Of a stretch of 46,045 bases of DNA, positions 9,973-44,508 are shown in pieces; the first letter of the stretch is position 1, and each line of letters begins with the position of its first letter. The position numbers were made by a program, and so were the translations under genes. Source of the stretch: a virus; the IMG/VR virus record IMGVR_UViG_3300005253_000333, positions 1-46,045 of that record; one strand, written 5' to 3'. The notes below the pieces were generated by a model. It ran no database searches. It saw nothing but the letters and a program-made list of their open reading frames with translations, and had not been told where the DNA came from.

Positions 9973-10374
9973 CTACGGGTTCGTGGCGAGCTGTCCCTGC
10001 CCGTCGAACGTCACCGCGAAGGTCACCCGCCCACCCGTGCCGCCCGAGATCGACACAACGGGGAAGATGTCTCCGTAGTAGTAGCGCGTCACCGCGCTCA
10101 CCGCGGGGTAGAGATAGAACCCAACGGCGTCGTCGTCTGCGTCGACCGCGTCGAAGACGACCTTCTGCGCGTCGTCGAAGTTCCCGTTGAACGATCCCGA
10201 GAAGCGCTTCAGCCCCTTGAGCTTCGTCTCCCACTCGTCCCCGAGTGCGGGATCCGGATCGAGGTCACGGTCGGTGTCGATCGTGAACTCGGCCGCCTCC
10301 GCGATCTGCACGGCGTTCCCGGCTGCGGTCCCCGCCATGTAGAGCACGGCGTTTTTTCCGTGAATGGTCCCCAT
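9973..10374 (-). CDS. Major tail tube protein, 133 aa
   Basis: The start ATG is preceded by GGGAGGAG at good spacing. The sequence opens MGTIHGKNAVLYMAG, carries alternating beta strands with FTIDTDRDLDPDPALGDEW and KRFSGSFNGNFDD, and ends in a glycine-rich strand region. Compact all-beta proteins of this type (TP901-1 / HK97 tube family) polymerise into the tail tube. It sits just upstream of the chaperone pair, where tube genes normally lie, but is separated from the connector genes by the sugar/sulfate-modifying cassette. The family call is by pattern and position. Confidence 0.8.
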   Translation of the reverse strand: MGTIHGKNAVLYMAGTAAGNAVQIAEAAEFTIDTDRDLDPDPALGDEWETKLKGLKRFSGSFNGNFDDAQKVVFDAVDADDDAVGFYLYPAVSAVTRYYYGDIFPVVSISGGTGGRVTFAVTFDGQGQLATNP

Positions 10375-10390
10375 CGGTCTCCTCCCTCTC

Positions 10391-11422
10391 TCAGACGGCG
10401 ACGCTCTCGCGCCGTCGCTCGAACGCCTCCATCAACGTCGCCACCCGCACATCGAACGTCTCGCCCTGCACGCACTTCCGCGCCTGCGCGGCGTGACACC
10501 GCCGCCGCTCGTCGGCGGCGAGATACTCGCGGATCAAGGTCTCCAGGCTCTCGCTGTCATCAAAGGTCGGGATGACCGGCGCCATCGGCGGCCACGATCC
10601 GCCCCACTGGAACATCTCCCTCATCTCTGCGCGCGCATCGCTGAGCTGGAACGCGCCGCACGCCGCCGCCTCGACCACGCGCGGGTTGACACTCTCGGCG
10701 CCGTCGCCGGCGCGGTGAGAGTTCAGGCAGATCTTCGCGCTCGCGTAGTAGCGCGGGACGTCGAGATTGCTGATGGCCTTGTCCACCACGAACGGCAGCA
10801 GCGGGCTGTCCTTGCCGAGGAACCCGGCGGCCTGCCAGAAGCCGAGCAGCCGGAGCTTGATGCCCGTCCAGTCGACGCCTTCGAGCAGCCGGATCCGCTC
10901 CTTCCAGCCCGTGCCGATCATCAGCACGTCGCACGCCTGCTCGGGGTCCGCAGCCACGGGCTTGTGGATGTCCGCGTCATAGGCGGGCCGGAGATAGGTC
11001 CAGCCGTAGCGCGCGGCCGACGTGCGCTCGTTCGTGGCGCAGATCATCTCGGGGTAGACCTGGGCGAACTTGGCCTGACGATCATCGCAGTAGGGCGACT
11101 CGGTGAAGATGACGGCCGTCGGCAGCGCGCAGCGCGCCAGGAACCAGATCCCGTCGGGATGGAAGTAGAGCGCCGCGACGATGATGACCAGGTCGACCTG
11201 GTTCCGGATCGCTTCGAGCAGGACGTTCTCGCTCGCCAGACGCGCGACCAGCCCCATGTCCTGCGCCTTCTTCTCCCCGAGCGCGCGGACGTGATACATG
11301 AACCGCCGCGAGAGGCGATAGTCGGCGACGTCGTGGCCCGCCTTCGTCAGCGCGAGCCGGTAGCCCCGCGCCACATCCGCGACGGAGAACTCGGCCGCCG
11401 GCCACACGAACAGGATTTTCAT
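10391..11422 (-). CDS. GT-B glycosyltransferase, CgeB-like, 343 aa
   Basis: The frame is open further upstream, but MKILFVWPAAEFSVADVARG at 11422 is the sensible start: it is a Rossmann-type first strand, and the ATG overlaps the preceding stop as ATGA. Residues ~1-160 form the N-terminal half. The C-terminal half has the donor-binding signature NPRVVEAAACGAFQLSD (residues ~246-262), typical of the glycosyl transferase family 1 / CgeB group. Members transfer activated sugars to proteins or polymers. The gene is the last of a coupled set with a sulfotransferase and a methyltransferase, embedded between connector and tail tube genes, so a virion or surface glycan is the likely target (inference). 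Confidence 0.8.
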   Translation of the reverse strand: MKILFVWPAAEFSVADVARGYRLALTKAGHDVADYRLSRRFMYHVRALGEKKAQDMGLVARLASENVLLEAIRNQVDLVIIVAALYFHPDGIWFLARCALPTAVIFTESPYCDDRQAKFAQVYPEMICATNERTSAARYGWTYLRPAYDADIHKPVAADPEQACDVLMIGTGWKERIRLLEGVDWTGIKLRLLGFWQAAGFLGKDSPLLPFVVDKAISNLDVPRYYASAKICLNSHRAGDGAESVNPRVVEAAACGAFQLSDARAEMREMFQWGGSWPPMAPVIPTFDDSESLETLIREYLAADERRRCHAAQARKCVQGETFDVRVATLMEAFERRRESVAV

Positions 11423-12027
11423 ACCGCGACCGCCTGGACCCGACCATAGATCCGGTCCTCGATGTCCACCCACTGCGGGTTCTTCGCGTAGAGCGCATCG
11501 ACCTGCGCCCGCGTGAACCACTGCCGTAGATCGTGGTCGTAAGTCATCGCGTTGACCCGCGGGAAGCTGCTCAGGCGCTGCCGCCGCTGCTCACGCGCCA
11601 GCACGTCGACCGGCTCGACCTCGGCCAGCAACCGGAGCAGATCGCTCGCGAGCACCTCGGTCCGGAGCCAGCGGTTCACGGCGGTGCGTCCGTCGTTCGT
11701 CAAGAGCCCGAGCCGCTCGTCCCCCCAGCCGCCCTCGATCGCTTCCTCGACCGAGACCGCGCGCGGGCTGGCGTCCGGCGGGAACCAGCCGAAGACCCGA
11801 CGGTGGACGAGCACGCTGATCGTCCAGGCCGGCAGCCGACGGATGTTGGCGGCATAGATCCGGTCCTTGCCGTCGGGGTCCAGATGCGTGCCGAATGGGC
11901 TGTGCTTCTCGCGCTCCGCGGCCGGCGTCAGCTCGACGTCCAGCCCCAGCGCCGTGACCATCGCGCGGGTCGCGTCGCCGCCCGTCTTCGGGATGTGGCC
12001 CCAGGCCCAGGTCCGCCCCACAATCAC
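11419..12027 (-). CDS. Sulfotransferase-like protein, 202 aa
   Basis: It starts with GTG at 12027 in a GTGA overlap with the upstream stop, and its own stop overlaps the glycosyltransferase start as ATGA. Near the N-terminus is HIPKTGGDATR (residues 11-21), matching the PAPS 5'-phosphosulfate-binding loop HIPKTGGT of the sulfotransferase superfamily. A following region (ISVLVHRRVFGWF, ~70-82) is where the 3'-phosphate-binding R-x-P motif should be, and here it is imperfect. Known enzymes move sulfate from PAPS to sugars or proteins. At 202 residues it is shorter than most. Pairing with a glycosyltransferase suggests sulfation of the sugar that enzyme adds; this is inference. Confidence 0.7.
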   Translation of the reverse strand: MIVGRTWAWGHIPKTGGDATRAMVTALGLDVELTPAAEREKHSPFGTHLDPDGKDRIYAANIRRLPAWTISVLVHRRVFGWFPPDASPRAVSVEEAIEGGWGDERLGLLTNDGRTAVNRWLRTEVLASDLLRLLAEVEPVDVLAREQRRQRLSSFPRVNAMTYDHDLRQWFTRAQVDALYAKNPQWVDIEDRIYGRVQAVAV

Positions 12028-12278
12028 GAGTCGTCCTCCCCGATGTCCCCCCCGCCAGCGCCGCCGTCAGGCGTCGCCGGCGCCAGGGTCGGCTCCTGGG
12101 CCGCGGAGCCCTCCGATCGCCTCGTGGCGCCCCGCCTGGCCGGCCTGTGGGCGGGTCTGGGCGCCGCCGCCGGCGGGGCCGGCTCCCGGCTGCCCTGGCA
12201 GAAGACGCAGAGCCCGGCCGCGTCGACGTCAGCCTCGAACCCCGCCCGGTGGCACTTCTGACAGGTCGTTCCCGCCAT
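12024..12278 (-). CDS. Zinc-ribbon protein with proline/alanine-rich tail, 84 aa
   Basis: The ATG at 12278 shares one base with the methyltransferase stop (TGATG). The first ~30 residues hold two Cys pairs (TCQKCHRAGF and LCVFCQG), a treble-clef or zinc-ribbon arrangement. The rest is a disordered Pro/Ala/Arg tail ending in an acidic stretch (GGDIGEDDS). It is coupled to its neighbours on both sides, so it probably works with the transferase cassette, possibly as an adaptor. No specific family is recognised. Confidence 0.7.
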   Translation of the reverse strand: MAGTTCQKCHRAGFEADVDAAGLCVFCQGSREPAPPAAAPRPAHRPARRGATRRSEGSAAQEPTLAPATPDGGAGGGDIGEDDS

Positions 12279-12910
12279 CACTTCCTCCCCGTGCAGAGAT
12301 AGGCCGTGGCCGCCTGCACATTGGCCGCGTTGCCCCAGCACTCGAAGCGACGCAGTAGGTCGTAGAGCTGCGCGCCCTCGACGGTCCACTGGCACGGCTC
12401 GATCGTCACGTCATGGAACGGGCGCAGCAGCAGCGCCCAGCCCTGGTCGGTGAACCGCCAGAAGTCGTTGTAGTCGCGCGTCGCATGCTGCGGCCAGAAG
12501 AACGGCGACGTCACGAGCAGCAGGCCGCCCGGCTTCAGCACCCGGTAGATCTCGCGCATCGCCCCGAACGGATCCTCGCAGTGCTCCAGGACCTCAGTGA
12601 CGATCATCGCGTCGAGTTCGTCGCTCGCCACCGGAAGCGCGCGCAGGTCCGCGTGCAGGTCCTCGCCGTTGAGTCCGACCGTGCGGTAGTGCGGCCCAAT
12701 CCAGCGGCGCGCGTTCTGGACCCCGACGTCCAGGACGCGACCGCGCAGATCCCCCCGGCGGTCCCAGATCCAGCGTTCGAGCTGGAGCCGGTGGTAGTCG
12801 GGCATGAACGCGTGCAGGTCCGGGCAGTTCGTCATCCAGTGCGCGAGCTGCGCGTTGCGCCCGTCGTTGCTCCCGCCGAAGAGGAGAATGTCTCGAGCCT
12901 CGGCCGTCAT
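12278..12910 (-). CDS. SAM-dependent methyltransferase (Methyltransf_11 type), 210 aa
   Basis: Class I methyltransferase motifs are in order: motif I as GRVLDVGVQN (57-66), an acidic region DLHADL near 84-89, AMIVTEVLEH (101-110), and LKPGGLLLVTSPF (125-137). The third glycine of motif I is replaced (VGVQN instead of VGCGxG), which some small-molecule methyltransferases tolerate. The aromatic-rich C-terminal half (HATRDYNDFWRFT) resembles enzymes in sugar or polysaccharide clusters. The start overlaps the previous stop as ATGA. It is the first gene of the transferase cassette, and the substrate is unknown. Confidence 0.85.
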   Translation of the reverse strand: MTAEARDILLFGGSNDGRNAQLAHWMTNCPDLHAFMPDYHRLQLERWIWDRRGDLRGRVLDVGVQNARRWIGPHYRTVGLNGEDLHADLRALPVASDELDAMIVTEVLEHCEDPFGAMREIYRVLKPGGLLLVTSPFFWPQHATRDYNDFWRFTDQGWALLLRPFHDVTIEPCQWTVEGAQLYDLLRRFECWGNAANVQAATAYLCTGRK

Positions 12911-13311
12911 AGAATCGCCTGCCGTTCCGCCTGCGCGCTGAAGCCCTGAATCATCCGGTCATTCTCATCGCGCTCGATGAGCCCCGGCTGCTGGATCAGG
13001 TTCACGCTCCGATAGTAGGTGCCCTCGATCGTCTGGTTCGCGACCTTCCCGAGCGCACGCGCGGCAGCGTTCGCCTTCGCGACCGCCGTGGCGTCGTCGG
13101 TGTTGCGCACGCGCACCTGGACGTTCGGGAACGTGAAGCGCACGTCGCTCGTCCCGTCCATCCGATGCTCTGGCGGCGCGCCCGGATAGGTGACGATGAG
13201 CAGCGAGTTGACCGCGCCCAGCGGCTGCTTGTCGACGAAGATGTCCGTGCCGACCGTGCCCACGCCTTCATCCTCCAGATACTCGGCCAGCTCAACGCTC
13301 GCGCTGCTCAT
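12907..13311 (-). CDS. Minor capsid / tail completion protein, 134 aa
   Basis: The ATG at 13311 overlaps the preceding stop as ATGA; the much longer upstream extension of this frame is only a shadow of other genes. The sequence has LAEYLEDEGVGTVGTDIFV, then a mixed alpha/beta region with RFTFPNVQVRVRNTDDATAV, and ends QGFSAQAERQAIL. This matches the pattern of phage proteins annotated as minor capsid or tail terminator, which cap the tail tube before it joins the head. It is the last gene of the connector run. Confidence 0.7.
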   Translation of the reverse strand: MSSASVELAEYLEDEGVGTVGTDIFVDKQPLGAVNSLLIVTYPGAPPEHRMDGTSDVRFTFPNVQVRVRNTDDATAVAKANAAARALGKVANQTIEGTYYRSVNLIQQPGLIERDENDRMIQGFSAQAERQAIL

Positions 13312-28655: not shown

Positions 28656-28975
28656 CACGTCACCACGAGCGCGACGCCCCTCGCCTGGGCGTCGCTACGC
28701 GCCCCGCAGTATCGACAGGGGTCGTCATACGGGAACCGACGGCAGAGGCCCGGACGGTCATCGTAGGCGCGGCACGTCCCGCTCTCCTGATCGAACTCGT
28801 TGCACGCGAACAGATTGCGCCGCCCGATGACCGGGATGAGGATCTGTCGGATCCGTGTCCACTCCGGGCTCTGGTCCTTATTCCCCACGATGAACGATCG
28901 GAGCCGCCGGCCCTGCCAATACCAATCGTGCGAGACCGGAAACTGCTGACAGCATCGACCATCGCACAACCTCAC
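28655..28975 (-). CDS. YkgJ-type zinc- or iron-chelating protein, 106 aa
   Basis: Starts with GTG at 28975 in a GTGA overlap. The Cys pattern CDGRCC at the N-terminus, then LFACNEFDQESGTCRAYDDR and PGLCRRFPYDDPCRYC, is that of the YkgJ / PF03692 family, whose members bind a metal or cluster through a conserved set of Cys residues. The biological role of the family is not established. An almost complete set is present here. Confidence 0.78.
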   Translation of the reverse strand: MRLCDGRCCQQFPVSHDWYWQGRRLRSFIVGNKDQSPEWTRIRQILIPVIGRRNLFACNEFDQESGTCRAYDDRPGLCRRFPYDDPCRYCGARSDAQARGVALVVT

Positions 28976-29508
28976 GGACAGGTCGCCGTCATCGTGTCGA
29001 GCGCGCGGCGTTCGGCGTCCGTCATCGTCAGGCCGTAGCGGTCCTTAATGAACCGCCAGTTCGCCGCGTAGAAGCACCAGCCGCCCTCGTTCGGCGGGCG
29101 CCAGTTCTCCGGACCGCGCGCGCCCTTCGCTCGGTTCAGGCTCCGATGGACGACGAGCAGATGGCCGGGGTCCGTGCGGTCGTTCGCGTAGGTCCGCTTC
29201 TCGTCCCGCGTCCAGGCCCAGGCGCCCGAGGCGTGCGCGTTGCCGAGCGGCACCATATGGTCGATGTCCAGCCGGCTCGCGTCGGTGTGCCACGTCCCGG
29301 AGAACAGGTCGAGCCAGAGCCCGCTGTTCACGACGCACTCGCGCGACGTGCGGAAGACGACCTCGCGCCAGCTCCGCTCGATGAGGACCTCGGCCCGCGT
29401 GTTCTGACAGTCCCGGTCGTCGTCGATCCAGTGCCGCCACTCGGATCGGTCGTAGTCGGGAATCGGTTGCGCCAGCAGCGCGAAGAGCAGCGCGGTGATC
29501 TTTATCAT
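28972..29508 (-). CDS. Secreted HNH nuclease (DUF1524 / GmrSD-C type), 178 aa
   Basis: A hydrophobic leader (MIKITALLFALLAQPIPDYD) suggests export. The catalytic core has LDIDHMVPLGNAHASGAW (81-98) with the DHxVPL motif, then NDRTDPGHLLVVHRSLNRAK and RGPENWRPPN, the pattern of DUF1524-type HNH nucleases. Secreted relatives act on DNA outside the cytoplasm. Two Cys pairs could make disulfides in the periplasm. It could degrade DNA from lysed cells or from a competing phage at entry (inference). Coupled on both sides by ATGA and GTGA. Confidence 0.82.
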   Translation of the reverse strand: MIKITALLFALLAQPIPDYDRSEWRHWIDDDRDCQNTRAEVLIERSWREVVFRTSRECVVNSGLWLDLFSGTWHTDASRLDIDHMVPLGNAHASGAWAWTRDEKRTYANDRTDPGHLLVVHRSLNRAKGARGPENWRPPNEGGWCFYAANWRFIKDRYGLTMTDAERRALDTMTATCP

Positions 29509-42878: not shown

Positions 42879-43445
42879 TCAGAGCCGCACGCCCCGCGCG
42901 CGCGCGCGGTCGATGAACTCCGCATAGTCTCGTCGGTTCGAGTGGGTCAGGTAGCGATAGCGCGTCGGGCTCAGGTAGAGCGCGACGCGCCCGCGGACGC
43001 GAGGGGGGAGATCGTCGTGCAGCAGATCGTAGCCGGCCGTCTGCCACGCGTGCCACTTCGCGAAGACGCCGCTCTTGATGTCCAGGACCTTTTCGAGCCG
43101 GTCGATGAGCCCGAGGCGATCCGCGGTTCCCCCGAAGCCGGCCGGCGAGACCCGCGGTTGTTCCAGGCGCGTCCAGCGACACCGGTGCGTCGCGAGGAAT
43201 TGCTTGTAGACGACGATGTGCGGGTCGACGAACGCCGGGTAGTCGTCCGGATGATAGGCGTCGAGGTCGAGCGCGAGCGTGGCGTGGTGAATGGCCTGGC
43301 CGCGTGCGCTGGCCCGCTCGCCGTAGGCAATCGGGATCTCGTCGCAGATGTCCGTGACGCTCGGCACGATCGCGCCATCGAACGAGTAGGTGTGCAACGA
43401 GGCGTTGAAGCTCCACCGGTTACGCGGTAGCCGTCTGGATGTCAT
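42879..43445 (-). CDS. PD-(D/E)XK exonuclease, YqaJ/RecB-like, 188 aa
   Basis: The residues GTADRLGLIDRLEKVLDIKS (106-125) hold Asp109, Asp122 and Lys124, and GVFAKWHAWQTAGYDLL (126-142) holds Gln135. This is the pattern of phage 5'-3' exonucleases that work with a single-strand annealing protein. It overlaps the annealing protein gene by 26 bases at the 5' end, so the pair is likely one unit. Confidence 0.8.
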   Translation of the reverse strand: MTSRRLPRNRWSFNASLHTYSFDGAIVPSVTDICDEIPIAYGERASARGQAIHHATLALDLDAYHPDDYPAFVDPHIVVYKQFLATHRCRWTRLEQPRVSPAGFGGTADRLGLIDRLEKVLDIKSGVFAKWHAWQTAGYDLLHDDLPPRVRGRVALYLSPTRYRYLTHSNRRDYAEFIDRARARGVRL

Positions 43446-44508
43446 TGATGATCTGGTCGTAGCGGCTGCGCGTGATGGCGGCGCAGAGATGCCAGAGGTC
43501 GTCGGCCTTCCCTTCGGCCGGCTTCAGCTTGCAGTCCTCACGCAGGAACCGGAGCAGCTCGTGCTTCTTCCAGCCGATGCTGTTGGCGATCTTCAGGAGC
43601 CGCTTGACCTGGAGGTCCGAGATCAGGCGTGCGCCCGTCGCGCTGGTCGAGCCCGCCCGCGGCGCCGCCCCGCTTCCCGCCGGCGGTGTGGTCCCGCCTC
43701 CCGCCGGCGGCGCCTGGCGGCCTTGATACTTGTCGGCGTTCGGACTGTCGGGATGGATCCCCTGCTCGCCCAGGAACGGCTCGCGGTCGAGCGTGCGCCA
43801 GTGGAGCTTCGTGCCGTCGTTCGTATTGTCGTAGACGAGGACACACTGCTCGCGCTTGAAGCGATCGTTGTGCCGGCGGTCCCAGCACTGGCCCGCCATC
43901 GGGATGTCCTTGCAGAGCCGCGCGAGCGCGTCGCTCTTCGTCGTCTCCAGCGCATCGGACCACGAGGCCCGCGGGTTGTTCGCCTGGTAGCGCGCGCCGC
44001 CCCAGGTCCAGCTCACGGCCTTCCCACGGATGAAGAGCGCCCAGGCCATGACCATCCACTGTCCCTCGTGCACGGTCGGCTTGCCCATCGGCTGCATCCC
44101 CCAGGCGCCCGGCCCGAGGACGACGCTCAGTTGCCGGCGGAGATGAATGTGCGCGACGTAGCACTCGCCGGTCGGCTTGATGTCGACCTGGTCGGGCGGG
44201 AAGTCGGCCATCAGCGCCTTCCGTTCTTTGGCCGTCGTGTCGAGCTGCGAGAGGCCCGTGAGCGCGATGATCGGCTGCTCGGGGAGCATGAGCGCGCCGG
44301 CCGCGGGCAGGTTCGCGGTGACGTCACTGGGTGCCGGCGGGAGCAGCCCGACCGGCGCACGGATTATGAGGCTTTCCGGCACCTGGACCAGGCGGCGCGG
44401 GCGCCGCTTCGGACCTGGTGGCGGCGTCGGCGCCGGCCCGCGTGGACGCGTGGTCGGTTTCTTCGGGCGATGGGATCGCTTCTCCGGGGCCTTGCGCTTG
44501 GCGGGCAT
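43420..44508 (-). CDS. Rad52/Mgm101-like single-strand annealing protein, 362 aa
   Basis: The start ATG has GAGGAGAG upstream. After a ~45-residue Pro/Arg/Lys region, the core (~105-235) contains IKPTGECYVAHIHLRRQLSV, LGPGAWGMQPMGKPTV and SWSDALETTKSDALARLCKD, the pattern of Mgm101/Rad52-fold annealing proteins. After a Gly/Pro linker the C-terminal part (KRLLKIANSIGWKKHELLRF) resembles a small helical domain seen in phage annealing proteins. It would pair with the exonuclease next to it. Confidence 0.75.
   Translation of the reverse strand: MPAKRKAPEKRSHRPKKPTTRPRGPAPTPPPGPKRRPRRLVQVPESLIIRAPVGLLPPAPSDVTANLPAAGALMLPEQPIIALTGLSQLDTTAKERKALMADFPPDQVDIKPTGECYVAHIHLRRQLSVVLGPGAWGMQPMGKPTVHEGQWMVMAWALFIRGKAVSWTWGGARYQANNPRASWSDALETTKSDALARLCKDIPMAGQCWDRRHNDRFKREQCVLVYDNTNDGTKLHWRTLDREPFLGEQGIHPDSPNADKYQGRQAPPAGGGTTPPAGSGAAPRAGSTSATGARLISDLQVKRLLKIANSIGWKKHELLRFLREDCKLKPAEGKADDLWHLCAAITRSRYDQIINDIQTATA

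Follow-up and report, generated by a model that had tools for sequence, protein, structure and literature searches.

A putative modular glycosylation island with a predicted sulfotransferase ahead of the gene for the major tail protein in a phage from IMG/VR

Gene content of the locus

The window that we analysed, the 46,045 nucleotides of IMG/VR record IMGVR_UViG_3300005253_000333, carries four genes for predicted modification proteins within a run of structural genes (Table 1). In transcription order, a gp10-like neck gene is followed by genes for a tail terminator, a class I SAM methyltransferase (MT), a small zinc-ribbon-like protein, a predicted PAPS-dependent sulfotransferase (ST), a GT-B glycosyltransferase (GT) and the major tail (tube) protein (MTP). 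The tight coupling claimed in the initial annotation can be read directly in the sequence, where stops and starts overlap as ATGA (terminator/MT), TGATG (MT/zinc protein), GTGA (zinc protein/ST) and ATGA (ST/GT). That annotation had placed the four genes between a "tail completion gene" and the tail tube gene; the tail tube border stands, and the other is a tail terminator by its match to PF12691, with homologues (30-54% identical) at the same position in the closest relatives. At about 0.91, the GC3 of each of the four genes resembles that of the flanking structural and tail genes.

Table 1. Positions of the genes at the locus and of compared features in other phages (positions without a prefix refer to the window)
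Feature	Position	Strand	Length (aa)	Basis or remark
gp10-like neck gene	13688-13308	-		First in transcription order of the set described
Tail terminator	12907..13311	-		PF12691, E 1.2e-15; left island border
MT, class I SAM methyltransferase	12278..12910	-	210	PF08241, E 2.1e-12
Small zinc-ribbon-like protein	12024..12278	-	84	CxxC..CxxC; disordered-looking tail
ST, predicted PAPS-dependent sulfotransferase	11419..12027	-	202	Motifs and predicted fold
GT, GT-B glycosyltransferase (CgeB-like Glyco_trans_1_2)	10391..11422	-	343	PF13524, E 1.4e-21
MTP, major tail (tube) protein	9973..10374	-	133	PHROG phrog_1407, E 6.2e-11
Fused family-2 GT + CxxC..CxxC zinc ribbon + GT-B	L160:1191-3095			Single ORF directly before MTP
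Fused family-2 GT + CxxC..CxxC zinc ribbon + GT-B	L162:643-2412			Single ORF directly before MTP
Fused family-2 GT + CxxC..CxxC zinc ribbon + GT-B	L164:1956-3755			Single ORF directly before MTP
ST-like ORF of LR756511.1	about 70092-70751 (L003:8001-8663)			Unannotated

The ORF list started GT at a GTG at 11521, which makes the protein too long; the ATG at 11422 agrees with relatives. Antisense ORFs, 10364-11449 (+) for example, resemble the shadow frames expected in a high-GC genome and were set aside. A second IMG/VR contig (L002) matches the window over 20.6 kb at 99.99% identity, the four genes included, so a chimeric assembly is unlikely. A blastn search of the cassette region against isolated phages gave no match. 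Elsewhere on the minus strand, the window encodes a GmrSD C-terminal nuclease domain (28972-29508, E 4.8e-6) and an Mgm101-like recombinase (43420-44508, E 2e-27).

Profile searches bore out the annotation of both a class I methyltransferase and a GT-B/CgeB-type glycosyltransferase. MT scored 47.9 bits against Methyltransf_11 (PF08241; gathering cut-off 21.2). Its motif I reads DVGVQNARRW, with the D-x-G start present and GxG absent, and the corresponding stretch is DVGVESPRRW in L036. Members of this methyltransferase subfamily were found again upstream of GT in other phages. GT scored 77.4 bits against PF13524 (Pfam gathering cut-off 25), the match covering the C-terminal donor-binding domain with the N-terminal half lying outside it. 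Neither GT nor MT had a relative in tblastn searches of isolated phages. Sequence searches of the PDB returned one unrelated chance match for GT alone (E 0.086), nothing for the GT alignment (A2) and chance matches only with alignment A1.

The glycosyltransferase, the major tail protein gene and their exchangeable partners

To place the four genes in context, we compared the locus with 25 other phages related through the capsid protein and five more related through MTP, and a GT-based scan of IMG/VR found 199 viral relatives. The neighbourhood survey covered the best 80 of these 199, which contain 59 GTs distinct at 90% identity, and the downstream gene was scored for the 55 of the 59 with at least 500 bp of downstream sequence. 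An MTP gene adjoins GT in 53 of the 55, mostly within 30 nt; the scan query was the GT sequence alone, and most of its rows had been obtained through MTP or capsid, so the sample may favour an MTP context. L181, one of the two misses, does have an MTP ORF, an overlapping one that escaped our start-codon rule, leaving L169 as the sole real exception in this set. The MTP homologues beside GT in relatives are 40-68% identical to that of the window. GT belongs to a subfamily of its own within Glyco_trans_1_2, tied to phage MTP genes, and is the conserved core of the island.

The genes around this core vary. L036 has the order terminator, zinc protein, MT, GT, MTP, with MT 56% and GT 53% identical to those of the window, and L011 has the same order with another methyltransferase (MT') in place of MT. 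In L163 MT' stands between terminator and GT, with MTP after GT, and L160, L162 and L164 carry, after the terminator, a zinc protein and then a single fused protein (family-2 glycosyltransferase, zinc ribbon and GT-B) ahead of MTP. L008 has only GT between terminator and MTP, with a possible remnant containing one CxxxC before GT. In L020 and L021, which are close to the window phage by capsid, MTP follows shortly after the terminator and GT is missing, so the proposed modification is dispensable.

Across the best 80 of 199 GT relatives, the genes upstream of GT include about 17 methyltransferases, 9 family-2 glycosyltransferases, 3 radical SAM proteins, 2 DegT sugar aminotransferases, a short-chain dehydrogenase, a GNAT acetyltransferase and a GT9 glycosyltransferase. 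Judged by its predicted gene products, this make-up is that of a sugar-tailoring island. A fixed four-gene cassette, as the initial annotation had it, does not fit these data: no relative contained the whole set of MT, zinc protein, ST and GT, and order and partners vary. L192 and L213 each have another GT-B from the family of GT (355-1449 in both), beside a family-2 glycosyltransferase domain and several kb before the GT that is linked to MTP. Methyltransferase matches between portal and protease in L009, L013, L015 and L016 were rejected as island members, as they fall in large multidomain ORFs elsewhere. These very long portal-capsid ORFs (L009:651-4361 and L016:4877-8662, also L013 and L015) combine methyltransferase-like, apparent uracil-DNA-glycosylase-like and protease-like parts, and a portal-adjacent MuF-like ORF in L013 (24-1685) has an apparent intein-like insertion (CVTGDTHV...TPNHPIL).

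The zinc protein had been labelled correctly, and the label understated it, as the CxxC..CxxC pattern proved to be a conserved part of the island. It had no family match, and its signature is approximately CxxCxRx(7)DVDxxxGxCxxC. Nine free-standing proteins at the locus, from the window and 8 other phages, have in common the form CxxCxR....D(V/A)D...GxCxxC. A version one residue shorter sits between the two glycosyltransferase domains of the fused proteins in L160, L162 and L164, and because of these fusions the zinc protein probably serves GT as a partner or a docking module. Among the sequence comparisons, the fusions are the best evidence that the zinc protein works with GT. Its exact role might be to bind MTP or to hold the enzymes together.

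Taken together, the tight GT-MTP link, the swapped tailoring enzymes and the zinc-glycosyltransferase fusions point to an island for virion glycosylation whose likeliest acceptor is MTP. We consider it fairly probable that the island acts on a virion protein, and the idea that these enzymes serve a virion glycan is supported by the adjacency to MTP and by the exchange of tailoring enzymes. A search of the MTP alignment for acceptor residues found Y89, P90 and G101 invariant in 53 GT-linked MTPs; with a single usable GT-less sequence for comparison, none of them is put forward as the acceptor.

Two other targets for the enzymes were weighed against this neighbourhood. Sulfation, methylation and glycosyl transfer are frequent in bacterial surface polysaccharides, and the cassette might alter the host cell surface during infection, blocking superinfection or changing a receptor, rather than modify the virion. 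We consider this improbable, as the genes lie in a late structural operon, GT adjoins MTP in 53 of the 55 relatives scored and a membrane-anchored partner of the Gtr type was not recognised. To our knowledge, morons that act on the host surface are usually not bound to one structural gene. Phage glycosyltransferases that change host serotype are nonetheless known (quoted in PMC10955285). Phage glycosyltransferases that modify DNA are also well known (quoted in PMC12619734), and it is conceivable that the target of GT is phage DNA and that MT and ST hypermodify its bases further, a reading with which the N6/N4 DNA methylase of the window phage would agree. Against this, no gene for hydroxymethyl-pyrimidine synthesis was recognised in the window ORFs scanned, and the GT family is tied to a tail protein gene and not to DNA metabolism; we regard DNA as a very improbable substrate.

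A divergent predicted sulfotransferase

ST had no match in Pfam, PHROG, NCBIfam or the PDB sequences, a finding about databases and not about biochemistry that makes it a divergent family member at best, and searches of bacterial genomes and of plasmids gave no relative. The initial annotation had pointed to a PAPS-loop-like HIPKTGG in this protein, and further landmarks of sulfotransferases accompany it. The HIPKTGG at residues 11-17 corresponds to a 5'-phosphosulfate-binding loop of the K-T-G-G/T type near the N-terminus, an arginine and a serine of the 3'-phosphate site are present eight residues apart (R63 and S71), and H42 is a likely further landmark; the protein also contains WLRTE (120-124). 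The closest relative in the collections searched is an unannotated ORF of the 595-kb uncultured phage LR756511 (tblastn, 29% identity, E 6e-19, 97% of the query). Common to the two proteins are AWGHIPKTGGD, NIRRLP, the residues R63 and S71, and the C-terminal part.

When IMG/VR was scanned with a codon pattern for HIPKTGG, at least 120 stretches were recovered, and from 80 loci among them we built a profile HMM of 47 full-length non-redundant viral proteins, with ST and the LR756511 protein excluded. Against this profile ST scored E 2e-4 and the LR756511 protein 2e-6, compared with 0.09 for the best of 2000 shuffles, with part of the signal coming from HIPKTGG itself, the motif by which the set was chosen. 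Profile-profile comparison (hhalign) of ST with the viral HIPKTGG set gave a probability of 95%. In a 37-row alignment (A4) assembled from HIPKTGG proteins, the motif itself, R63 and S71 show no variation, and H42 is almost invariant.

An AlphaFold2 model of ST computed with this alignment reached pLDDT 79.9 and pTM 0.77, and is biased toward the sulfotransferase fold because that alignment consists of sulfotransferases; the single-sequence model was uninformative (pLDDT 39.8). In a Foldseek search of the PDB with the alignment-based model, the top 25 matches were all enzymes of the sulfotransferase fold, though of moderate quality (probability up to 1.00, E approximately 6e-3, TM approximately 0.5), and the named viral matches near the top were mostly sulfotransferases of phages and giant viruses. 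The 202-residue protein is thus modelled with the PAPS-binding fold whose absence would have counted against the original suggestion. From its motifs and model, ST is very probably a divergent PAPS sulfotransferase.

ST resembles the HIPKTGG sulfotransferases of cyanophages P-SSM7 and ACG-2014f, Ralstonia phage RSL1 and pithoviruses in the loop, the arginine and serine, the conserved histidine and the predicted fold. It differs from the aligned viral proteins in being only 12-21% identical to them, in its lack of a Pfam match and in its place in a tail-gene cassette, and its 3'-phosphate motif reads NIRRLPAWTIS where theirs is VRNPxxRxxS. The number of HIPKTGG stretches in IMG/VR, some of them beside head-closure genes, speaks against the earlier view that sulfation machinery in a phage, there noted within the structural module, is unusual; sulfotransferases are common in phages. 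Head-closure genes and homing endonucleases are frequent neighbours of viral HIPKTGG sulfotransferases (L037-L116), the commonest families having 6 members. Others neighbour genes for APS kinase, epimerase, FkbM methyltransferase or glycosyltransferase. The function of sulfotransferases in phages has been described as unclear (PMC10580990, published in 2023), and the interest of ST lies in its placement within a measurable virion-modification set and not in any rarity of such genes.

A 203-kb contig (IMGVR_UViG_3300031857_024884) and a 67-kb near-copy (L004 and L005) likewise have sulfotransferases together with methyltransferases in a phage. Several sulfotransferase-like ORFs lie there with methyltransferases, an epimerase-like ORF and an APS kinase (PF01583, E 4e-68), and this phage may make its own PAPS. 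The cluster differs from that of the window in this APS kinase and in the number of sulfotransferases, and the short stretch examined contains no tail gene. Among the window ORFs scanned, none was recognised as a gene for making PAPS.

Absence or scattering of the cassette in close relatives, which would have counted against the original suggestion, is half borne out: GT, the zinc protein and MT keep their place there, and ST is absent from the other islands. Among the best 80 of 199 GT relatives, the 77 other GT loci, with up to 6 kb upstream of each covered, yielded no sulfotransferase. By sequence, ST is private to the window phage among the islands compared. It may therefore be a recent passenger with another substrate, in which case GT, the zinc protein and MT would form a tail-glycosylation island and ST would be an unrelated moron that sulfates, for example, a small molecule or a glycan on the host surface. 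In keeping with this, ST is the sole member missing from all the other islands, no GT or MT was found among the flanking ORFs read around its LR756511 relative, and viral sulfotransferases occur in many contexts, homing endonuclease neighbours included. Its position argues otherwise: the ST gene stands immediately between those of the zinc protein and GT and shares 4 nt with each of them, the same slot is filled by sugar-tailoring enzymes in other phages, and some phage sulfotransferases sit with glycosyltransferase, epimerase or APS kinase genes. On balance an unrelated moron seems to us rather unlikely, while the narrower proposal that ST acts on the same glycan as GT, which we draw from its placement, falls a little short of an even chance.

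A possible decorated tail tube

The explanation that we prefer, with a probability of roughly 55%, is that the region is a local version of a modular glycosylation island for the virion, probably its tail tube, found immediately upstream of the MTP gene across a broad range of uncultured tailed phages, with ST and MT as its finishing enzymes in the window phage. GT would attach a sugar to MTP, or to a neighbouring tail or head protein, during virion production, with the zinc-ribbon protein as its partner or docking module. The slot upstream of GT would hold exchangeable finishing enzymes; in the window phage MT would cap the sugar and ST, if active, would add sulfate from host PAPS. MT may act on the same glycan, and the decoration might shield or alter the tail surface. 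A bolder version is tentative at most: the product could be a methylated and sulfated tail-tube glycan, the first sulfated glycan of a bacteriophage virion, made by an exchangeable slot on a widespread GT-MTP island, with the zinc-ribbon subunit as the dock for the enzymes.

A related kind of modification is known from mycobacteriophages Che8, Corndog and Myrna, in which phage-encoded glycosyltransferases glycosylate capsid and tail-tube proteins (Freeman et al. 2023, as cited in PMC12363180, PMC12619734 and PMC12894461), and a methyltransferase is mentioned in connection with this process (PMC12894461). The window island would resemble this system in role, and its phage-encoded glycosyltransferase is linked to a virion structural gene. 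The arrangements differ: in mycobacteriophage Maravista (F1, a relative of Che8) the glycosyltransferase genes lie near the 3' end of the genome, whereas GT of the window phage directly precedes MTP. Islands of the window type also differ in their exchangeable partners, the zinc ribbon and sulfotransferase included. Virion glycosylation by phage glycosyltransferases is thus of a known kind, while we found no description in the literature of the gene arrangement, the zinc partner and a sulfotransferase in such an island.

Independently of ST, the link between GT and the MTP gene in more than 50 distinct phages, with changing partners, suggests that glycans on the tail surface are widespread among environmental phages, and the exchange of enzymes beside GT suggests that these glycans diversify by swapped finishing enzymes. 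The predicted sulfotransferase of the window phage belongs to a gene set that probably yields a decorated tail tube, a product measurable directly on virions, and this makes the question of what phage sulfotransferases do testable.
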